Shown here: piece by piece, positions 62,558 through 64,000 of the stretch
Layout of the letters: the number at the start of each line of letters is the position of its first letter
Position numbering within the stretch: the stretch's first letter is position 1
Source: Bacteroidia bacterium
GTDB lineage: Bacteria > Bacteroidota > Bacteroidia > Cytophagales > Cyclobacteriaceae
Direction: 5' to 3'
Assembly: GCA_030425425.1 (NCBI GenBank)
Contig: JAUIAO010000019.1
Location: 1-64,000, forward strand
Length of the DNA stretch: 64,000 bases
Position numbers and translations under genes: made by a program
Notes under the pieces: model-generated
The model's database searches: none
Told to the model about the DNA's origin: nothing
What the model saw: only the letters and a program-made list of their open reading frames with translations

Positions 62558-63277
62558 TTGATCAACAATTCTGATTTGGAGCACAAAACCTTGGGTTTTG
62601 AAATCCACGCACAGCCCAACGACGAAACATGTGGGCCCACCTGCTTGCAGGCTGTGTATCAATATTACGATGATCCTGTGTCTCTTCGTGACGTCATTAC
62701 TCAAGTGAAAACACTCAAAAGCGGAGGTACACTTGCCGTGATGCTCGGTAATCATGCACTTTCTCGCGGATATCAGGTGACGATCTATACTTATAATCTT
62801 CAGATGTTTGACCCAACATGGTTCAACGGAAAGGTTGATCTTATACAGAAACTTCAGCAGCAGAGGACCTACAAATCGACGAAGAAATTTGACGTGGCTA
62901 CTGATGCTTATCTCACTTTTTTACAGAAAGGGGGGAAGATCAAGTTTGAGGAATTGAATGCGAGACTGATAAAAAATCTACTCAATCAGAATTTGCCAAT
63001 TTTGACAGGACTGAGTGCTACTTATCTCTACAACTGTGCACGTGAGATTGGGGAAACCAATCAATACAATGATATCCAAGGTGAGCCAACTGGACATTTT
63101 GTGGTGGTAAAAGGGTATGACCCTGTAAACAGGCTGGCTCATATTGCGGATCCACTTGAGAAAAATCCTATTAGTGATACACAGCATTATATGGTCAACC
63201 TTCAGCGGCTGATCAACTCCATTTTATTGGGGATAGTAACCTATGATGCTAACCTGCTCATTATTCACAAAAGCTAA
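62558..63277 (+). CDS. C39-like cysteine peptidase family protein
   Basis: This 239-aa protein has a papain-fold/C39-like core: QPNDETCGPTCLQAVYQYY carries the Gln/Cys oxyanion-nucleophile pair, GHFVVVKGYD carries the His, and IADPLEKNPIS the Asp. There is no transporter domain and no signal peptide. The start is TTG at 62558, giving MINNSDLEHKTL; an in-frame TTG at 62576 is an alternative. The stop codon is followed immediately by the ATG of a RimK-like/RLAN gene, so the two are probably functionally linked. Confidence 0.82.
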   Translation: MINNSDLEHKTLGFEIHAQPNDETCGPTCLQAVYQYYDDPVSLRDVITQVKTLKSGGTLAVMLGNHALSRGYQVTIYTYNLQMFDPTWFNGKVDLIQKLQQQRTYKSTKKFDVATDAYLTFLQKGGKIKFEELNARLIKNLLNQNLPILTGLSATYLYNCAREIGETNQYNDIQGEPTGHFVVVKGYDPVNRLAHIADPLEKNPISDTQHYMVNLQRLINSILLGIVTYDANLLIIHKS

Positions 63278-64000
63278 ATGTCAACAAAATATATCATCAC
63301 TGAAAAACCGGATCAATGGACAGGTTTGCCGGTAGGTGTGGAAGTGATCACACCCAGTGAGTATTTTTCAGAAGAGTCTTATTTGAAAAATAGGAAAGTG
63401 AAGGTTGTAAACCTTTGTAAAAGTTATCAATATCAGAGTTTGGGATATTATGTGTCACTTCTGGCAGGAGCTAGAGGGCACAAAGTGATGCCAGAGATCG
63501 CCACGCTGCAGGATTTTCGATTTCCTTCTTTAATGAAAGAAGATGCCGAGGATTTTGAAGATCTGATCCAGCAATACCTTAAGAAACAATCCACGGATAA
63601 ACTTGAGCTGATCATCTGCTTTGGAAAAGTGGAAGAGAATAAGCTTGGAAGAATTGGATCATTGCTGTTTAATTTATTCCAGGTGCCGATTCTGAAAGCC
63701 ACTTTTGTGAAGAAAGACAAATGGGCTCTGAATTCTCTGAAACCATTGAACGTCGTTGATTTGCCTGAGCAATCTAAATCACTTCTTCAGCAGGCTTTGC
63801 AGGAATATTTGATGGGTAAAAACCGTCTTCTGAAGCAATATAGCCGCAAGAAATACGACATGGCGATCTTGGTAAACCCTGAAGAGACTACTCCTCCTTC
63901 GGATAAAAAGGCCATTCAGAATTTTGTGAAAGCAGGGGAGAAGGTAGGATTCAACGTGGATTTGATTACAAGGAATGACTTTGCGAAGTTGATCCAATAT
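63278..64000 (+). CDS. RimK-like ligase N-terminal (RLAN) domain protein, cut by window edge
   Basis: The open frame starts at ATG 63278, directly after the peptidase stop, and runs to the window end with no stop (241 residues seen). The start reads MSTKYIITEKPDQWTGLPVG. The segments VVNLCKSYQYQSLGYYVSLL, ARGHKVMPEIATLQDFR and KKYDMAILVNPEETTPPSDK match the RLAN domain found N-terminal to RimK-type ATP-grasp ligases. The ATP-grasp part should lie beyond the edge. Such proteins are predicted to join amino acids to a carboxylate by ATP-driven amide formation. It is paired with a C39-like peptidase gene. Confidence 0.75.
   Translation, partial: MSTKYIITEKPDQWTGLPVGVEVITPSEYFSEESYLKNRKVKVVNLCKSYQYQSLGYYVSLLAGARGHKVMPEIATLQDFRFPSLMKEDAEDFEDLIQQYLKKQSTDKLELIICFGKVEENKLGRIGSLLFNLFQVPILKATFVKKDKWALNSLKPLNVVDLPEQSKSLLQQALQEYLMGKNRLLKQYSRKKYDMAILVNPEETTPPSDKKAIQNFVKAGEKVGFNVDLITRNDFAKLIQY

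Follow-up and report, generated by a model that had tools for sequence, protein, structure and literature searches.

RLAN neighbourhoods with a GNAT, a papain-like peptidase and a GCS2 protein were reportedly described by Iyer et al. in 2009, with a peptide pathway as the predicted role. Fusions of a GNAT to a papain-like peptidase, near RLAN and RimK ATP-grasp, are said to be mentioned both there and in the Pfam note on PF14401. The locus described here resembles these neighbourhoods in its RLAN and RimK-type ATP-grasp protein and in the GCS2 gene nearby. It differs from the reported neighbourhoods in having a fixed four-gene operon, an N-formylglutamate amidohydrolase-like gene (FGase), a free-standing C39-like gene and a measured exclusion between GCS2 and GNAT. 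This exclusion, together with the partner changes seen on the ligase tree, may be the part that is new.

Ngg, which we take to be a GNAT/ATP-grasp fusion, belongs to the second comparable system. According to PMC8070244, Ngg N-acetylates one glutamine and joins it to a second, PA3460 is called a GNAT, and the NAGGN operon consists of asnO, ngg and a peptidase gene. The NAGGN system is similar in that one enzyme performs both N-acetylation and peptide bond formation and a peptidase is encoded in the operon; the GNAT-RLAN fusions found in this study are similarly laid out. It differs in that the ligase here bears an RLAN domain, and that GCS2 replaces GNAT in the locus type of the window. Glutathione synthesis, when considered with Alr0975, a primitive phytochelatin synthase, offers a third parallel: glutathione is made by a GCS2-family enzyme and an ATP-grasp ligase, and Alr0975 is a papain-fold enzyme with a fold like that of the C39 protein. 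Here the subfamilies fall below the curated cut-offs, an FGase is added, and the Pfam matches of the C39 protein at E 0.01 include no phytochelatin synthase family. The C39 domains of bacteriocin-type systems (ComA and PCAT1) share the fold, whereas the protein of the window has no transporter domain, is about 100 residues longer and is encoded in a ligase operon.

In PMC9756463, a RimK family protein of Pseudomonas sp. ANT_H4 is listed beside a GNAT on pyomelanin-forming fosmids. PMC7367687, the one paper retrieved that contains both "RLAN" and "ATP-grasp", concerns a mouse decarboxylase. The literature search, for which subscription papers were mostly beyond reach, brought up no experimental work on RLAN ligases. 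The original prediction stated that RLAN systems are described only by prediction; the search is consistent with this, although it does not prove it.

Structure of the Operon

The window is the whole analysed stretch of DNA, 64,000 nucleotides in length. Its last two genes are the beginning of an operon, whose remainder had been supposed to lie past the window edge. This is the case. When the contig is read further, the ligase gene ends at contig position 64732 (484 aa in total), and the gene sequence continues with GCS2, a carboxylate-amine ligase of the kind anticipated to the right, and FGase (Table 1). The absence of a gap between the peptidase stop and the next ATG is also borne out by ORF reading: the TAA directly precedes ATG 63278, with 0 bp between them. 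The two are adjacent genes, not one polypeptide.

Table 1. Genes, domain and putative catalytic residues of the operon. Positions are those of the window unless marked as contig positions.
Feature	Position	Strand	Remarks
C39-like papain-fold gene	62558-63277	+	TTG start, 239 aa
Putative catalytic Q19	62612-62614	+	Invariant in GCS2-type alignment
Putative catalytic C25	62630-62632	+	Invariant in GCS2-type alignment
Putative catalytic H180	63095-63097	+	Invariant in GCS2-type alignment
Putative catalytic D198	63149-63151	+	Invariant in GCS2-type alignment
RLAN + RimK-type ATP-grasp ligase gene, 5' part in window	63278-64000	+	PF14401 and PF08443 above cut-off
RLAN domain, residues 27-173 of ligase	63356-63796	+	PF14401
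GCS2-type carboxylate-amine ligase gene	contig 64736-65971		Outside window, 411 aa
FGase (N-formylglutamate amidohydrolase-like) gene	contig 65938-66666		Outside window, 242 aa

In profile searches of the source genome (a 5.85 Mb draft), RLAN has this single match and FGase has no further match elsewhere, while a second GCS2 match elsewhere is weaker (31.7 vs 92.2 bits). Scans of the operon revealed no excess of sigma-70-type promoters (14 sites vs 11.6 in shuffles, sd 3.2) or of terminators (2 vs 3.4 in shuffles).

The 3' flank contains two other elements. A short palindromic repeat occurs in 5 copies within 3.3 kb 3' of the operon (contig 66823-70087; L002:6823-10087) and extends there into the predicted N-termini of local ORFs. 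At up to 3 mismatches, it is seen at 17 places genome-wide and at none in the window, and its reversed control at 0. An AstE/AspA-like gene lies 3.5 kb 3' of the operon (contig 70195-71136; L002:10195-11136). Such a gene follows FGase immediately in L034 and L038, from two genomes of one genus, and 7 of the 97 GCS2 loci have one close to the operon. It is possibly a lineage-bound fifth member of the operon.

The RLAN Ligase

The product encoded after the peptidase gene had been assigned to RLAN, and PF14401 supports this assignment with 150.1-153.3 bits against a cut-off of 25 (E 1.4e-44 to 4.8e-44). The ATP-grasp domain expected after residue 241 is present: the RimK-like ATP-grasp family PF08443 matches residues 282-459 with 54.9 bits (Pfam cut-off 21). 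Eight ATP-grasp residues were checked and are kept in 96-97 of 97 GCS2 loci and in 99 of 99 GNAT loci, and the same counts hold for K283, K323, E451 and N453. For these, as for the checked residues of the other proteins, the individual roles are presumed from general knowledge of the families. At one locus (L070:5273-7954), the RLAN ligase is frameshifted near its start and GCS2 is split into two ORFs; both are probably assembly errors, and the frameshift disturbs some columns of one alignment.

The predicted model of the ligase has a mean pLDDT of 80.9, and its fold matches cover residues 190-484. The highest Z scores are those of ArgX (Z 27.7, rmsd 2.5, 265 aligned), LysX (Z 27.4) and RimK (Z about 26). 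D-Ala-D-Ala ligases reach a Z of 24.4 and are at the top by Foldseek E-value. These are all amino-acid ligases, and ArgX, LysX and RimK act on proteins.

Because the best matches by Z act on proteins, protein tagging stays a rival to the peptide pathway proposed below. RimK adds amino acids to the end of ribosomal protein S6; similarly, the RLAN/RimK ligase and GCS2 would extend the end of a protein, and C39 and FGase would remove the added residues. The constant pairing with two hydrolases would suit such a write/erase system. We consider tagging rather unlikely, however. The ligase scores 79.2 bits against the cut-off of 143.4 of TIGR00768 (rimK_fam, alpha-L-glutamate ligase), and the match to D-Ala-D-Ala ligases, whose substrates are free amino acids, is nearly as good as that to the enzymes acting on proteins. 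Also, no LysW-like ORF was found within 4 kb, and no gene for a substrate protein recurs near GCS2 loci among ORFs of at least 60 aa within 4 kb, where the most frequent family is seen at 15 of 97. A protein substrate might nevertheless have its gene at another place in the genome.

The GCS2 and FGase Proteins

The GCS2 protein matches PF04107 with 91.4 bits (Pfam cut-off 21). It is below the glutathione GshA model TIGR02048 (50.1 vs 249.05 bits) and the YbdK model TIGR02050 (59 vs 176.4 bits), and the best of the equivalog or subfamily models, NF010039, gives 70.1 bits against 371. Since none of these models reaches its cut-off, the use of glutamate by this protein is a guess at the family level. 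Comparison with solved structures by sequence gave no confident relative: a designed helical bundle (E 0.05) matches by chance, plant glutamate-cysteine ligases follow at E 0.25-0.6, and a single-sequence query returned nothing. The 12 GCS2 residues checked are kept in 93-97 of 97 GCS2 loci.

The FGase protein matches PF05013 with 76 bits (Pfam cut-off 28.9) and has no NCBIfam match; its activity is predicted from the family. By sequence, the nearest solved structures are 2odf (Atu2144; E 1.5e-34) and then 2q7s. Eleven residues were checked and are kept in 67-72 of 72 proteins. One FGase of 420 aa (L163:8693-9955) is extended at its C-terminus by what, on visual inspection, resembles an HD-type phosphohydrolase domain.

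The C39-Like Protein

PF13529 (Peptidase C39-like) matches the first protein of the operon with 43.6 bits (Pfam cut-off 24), and PF03412 with 31.2 bits (cut-off 22) over a span of 48 residues only. The catalytic roles of Q19, C25, H180 and D198 are presumed from knowledge of papain and C39 peptidases. All four are unchanged in the 34 aligned GCS2-type members (34 of 36; L037 and L102 were omitted). Among the C39 proteins of all GCS2 loci, H180 and D198 are kept without exception (87 of 87), and Q19 and C25 in 85 of 87, the other 2 being gaps. The putative active-site residues of all four proteins are thus kept in nearly all operons with GCS2, which indicates that the genes of the GCS2 type are not decayed. 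In the GNAT-type C39 domains, Q and C are kept in 61 of 61, while H180 is not aligned in 17 and D198 in 25 of the 61, and E takes the place of D198 in 11.

The predicted model (mean pLDDT 88.8) matches the C39 domains of ComA and PCAT1, the latter with Z 15.7, rmsd 1.7 and 134 aligned residues. Other matches are Alr0975 (Z 14.5, rmsd 3.4, 165 aligned) and PeiR, a pseudomurein endoisopeptidase, which is the top match of Foldseek (Z 13.9, 150 aligned). The match to Alr0975 is one of common fold, its Z being near that of ordinary C39 peptidases.

The resemblance to Alr0975, whose structure is an acyl-enzyme with glutathione, brings up a low-molecular-weight thiol. In this scenario, the operon would make a glutathione-like gamma-Glu-Cys-X and the C39 protein would act on it like a phytochelatin synthase; GCS2 and ATP-grasp parallel in type both glutathione-making steps. 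However, the GshA models are not reached, and relatives with GNAT would make no gamma-Glu thiol. Furthermore, BshC of bacillithiol synthesis is present in 58 of 59 relatives, source included, and RLAN in 20 of the same 59. Because BshC is there regardless of RLAN, the main route to a thiol probably does not run through this operon. The related idea of a replacement for glutathione is weakened by the same distribution. A thiol product is therefore considered improbable.

PCAT1 and ComA are leader peptidases, and the graspetide ligase PsnB is found lower among the structural matches of the ligase model. A graspetide-like ribosomal peptide, of which the ATP-grasp enzyme would crosslink the precursor and the C39 protein would cut the leader, would accord with these matches; both C39 domains and ATP-grasp ligases are known from such clusters. 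Yet the C39 protein has no ABC transporter domain in Pfam, no precursor family recurs near GCS2 loci among ORFs of at least 60 aa, and such a pathway offers no evident role for GCS2 or FGase. We regard this explanation as very improbable.

Distribution of RLAN and Sampling of Loci

RLAN is found in 20 of 59 relatives and, when 296 genomes are sampled from the phylum of the source, in 35; the source is included in both counts. A second sample, of 398 genomes from the phylum of Thiobacillus thioparus (genome G351, labelled Pseudomonadota and included in the count; its locus is L116), has RLAN in 72. The profile search gave 0 of 14 control genomes. Among the matches listed, the closest named relatives belong to Marinoscillum, with 75% identity.

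The sample comprises 207 loci: 53 are every match in the relatives and the phylum draw, 80 are named, and 74 come from the G351-phylum draw. The named loci are the best 80 of 582 confirmed matches and are biased toward the type of the query. In the G351-phylum draw, 74 of 75 places were taken, the 75th being L116, already among the 80. Merging of ligases at least 99% identical leaves 204 loci. Counts are from a six-frame scan whose profiles, for GNAT as for the other parts, derive from the sampled loci themselves; with these profiles, a GNAT threshold of 60 bits and a reach of 3.5 kb from the ligase, an unrelated GNAT would escape.

Partner Genes and Gene Order

The partner of the RLAN ligase is GCS2 at 97 loci, GNAT at 99 and neither at 11, and no locus has both. 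Merging at 99% identity brings these counts to 95, 98 and 11. One GCS2 locus (L120) has a weak GNAT match of 40 bits, 2 kb off. Several of the 11 loci with neither are cut short close to the ligase: in L031, L155 and L170 only 2, 76 and 102 bp follow it, and in L252 the sequence stops 651 bp upstream. FGase is seen at 72 of the 97 GCS2 loci versus 0 of the 99 GNAT loci.

The comparison of operons thus did bring out GNAT in the RLAN loci of relatives, as had been envisaged. The linkage of peptidase and ligase genes holds as well: a C39 domain and the RLAN gene are no more than 3.5 kb apart at 154 of 207 loci (87 of 97 with GCS2, 61 of 99 with GNAT and 6 of 11 with neither). C39 was not found at 10 of 97 GCS2 and 38 of 99 GNAT loci, nor FGase at 25 of 97 GCS2 loci, some of which end at a contig edge. 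Being missing from some loci, neither gene looks essential to the product.

For the genes present, all 97 GCS2 loci show the order C39-RLAN-GCS2-FGase on one strand. All four genes are found at 66 of them; 21 are without FGase, 6 without C39, and 4 have RLAN and GCS2 alone. The median stop-to-start gaps, with the starts of the longest ORFs, are 0, -4 and -8 bp, and gaps from -60 to +30 account for 80 of 87, 78 of 94 and 59 of 69 measured. The original prediction considered the ligase and the peptidase as a make/trim pair. Order, spacing and intact sites across several phyla support such a pairing well, but C39 and RLAN are not the whole unit, which also includes a second ligase and an amidohydrolase.

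The best GNAT match is fused to C39 at 60 loci and to the RLAN ligase at 15, and is separate at 24. Among the 74 loci of the G351-phylum draw, GNAT is present at 72 and GCS2 at 0, while L116 itself is of the GCS2 type. Thirty of these 74 have no same-strand partner, and a divergent GNAT is seen at 29 of the 30.

Other neighbours of the 97 GCS2 loci were clustered from ORFs of at least 60 aa within 4 kb. The top families are seen at 15, 13, 12 and 10 of 97 loci; the commonest is mostly on the opposite strand and sigma-factor-like by eye. Visual inspection of the 12 families found at the most loci showed neither a transporter nor an AsnO-type amidotransferase.

A LysW-type carrier was sought separately. 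At 45 of 207 loci (25 GNAT, 17 GCS2 and 3 neither), an ORF of 30-110 aa within 4 kb carries two CxxC motifs, and none of these ORFs has the WGE end, which is the LysW-like motif; the candidate was rejected. In a Verrucomicrobiota MAG (L131:2080-6273), a GNAT-RLAN pair is followed by genes that by eye are diaminopimelate decarboxylase-like and dihydrodipicolinate synthase-like. These neighbours perhaps hint at lysine or diaminopimelate as a substrate.

Phylogeny of the Ligases and Partner Changes

The tree contains 109 representatives of 194 rows, in which rows of the same label were collapsed at 72% identity and from which the 11 loci with neither partner and 2 short rows were omitted. The tree was built by a quick method, its branch support is limited to SH-aLRT, and the composition of six rows is unusual. 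On it, the partner label changes 3 times, against a mean of about 36 after shuffling (0 of 500 shuffles as low). All 3 changes are forced by starred branches.

The main GNAT group includes 39 of 50 GNAT rows, largely from the G351-phylum draw, and L151 adjoins it. A second group of 9 GNAT rows, from Verrucomicrobiota, Bacteroidia and others, sits inside the GCS2 clade (SH-aLRT 98). L181, also with GNAT, is nested in the GCS2 clade as well. In L181 and in L182, which is not in the tree, GNAT is directly downstream of the ligase, which is the slot of GCS2. Both GNAT groups nested in the GCS2 clade are also devoid of C39 and FGase, indicating that the swap does not concern one gene alone. The exclusion between GCS2 and GNAT is partly due to ancestry. 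The few changes support functional replacement without proving it.

A Possible Pathway to a Capped Peptide

The operon combines two amide-forming and two amide-breaking enzymes in a fixed order, which suggests a unit of synthesis and recycling. We propose with moderate confidence that its four genes make and recycle a small capped peptide, and that related bacteria use GNAT in place of GCS2. The chemistry ascribed to the GCS2, GNAT, RLAN/RimK and C39 families is general knowledge.

In the first step, GCS2 with ATP would attach an amino acid or amine, through its amine, to a carboxylate, for which the gamma-carboxylate of glutamate is the likeliest candidate. The GNAT of other lineages would instead form an equivalent N-cap from an acyl-CoA. 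The RLAN/RimK ligase would then form the second amide bond via an acyl phosphate. In a third step, the C39 protein would form a thioester at Cys25, from which the acyl part might be either hydrolysed or transferred, as phytochelatin synthase does with gamma-Glu-Cys. Finally, FGase would open the amide made by GCS2 and release glutamate. The FGase family consists of glutamate-specific amidohydrolases acting on N-formylglutamate, and the presence of FGase beside GCS2 only fits the removal of a glutamyl cap.

The simplest explanation for the exclusive choice between GNAT and GCS2 is that they are two ways to N-cap a like substrate, from acyl-CoA or by ATP-dependent glutamylation. It can be tentatively speculated, with less confidence than for the pathway itself, that the cap is interchangeable, gamma-glutamyl when made by GCS2 and recycled by FGase or N-acyl when made by GNAT, and that RLAN adds an invariant core in both types. 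If so, these loci would represent a widespread, undescribed class of metabolites.

RLAN ligases are common, yet they are without a described product in the literature searched. The exclusion between GCS2 and GNAT makes this orphan operon testable: its product would bear a cap that can be taken off, on a core common to the two types. A mass-spectrometric comparison of two organisms could reveal this product.
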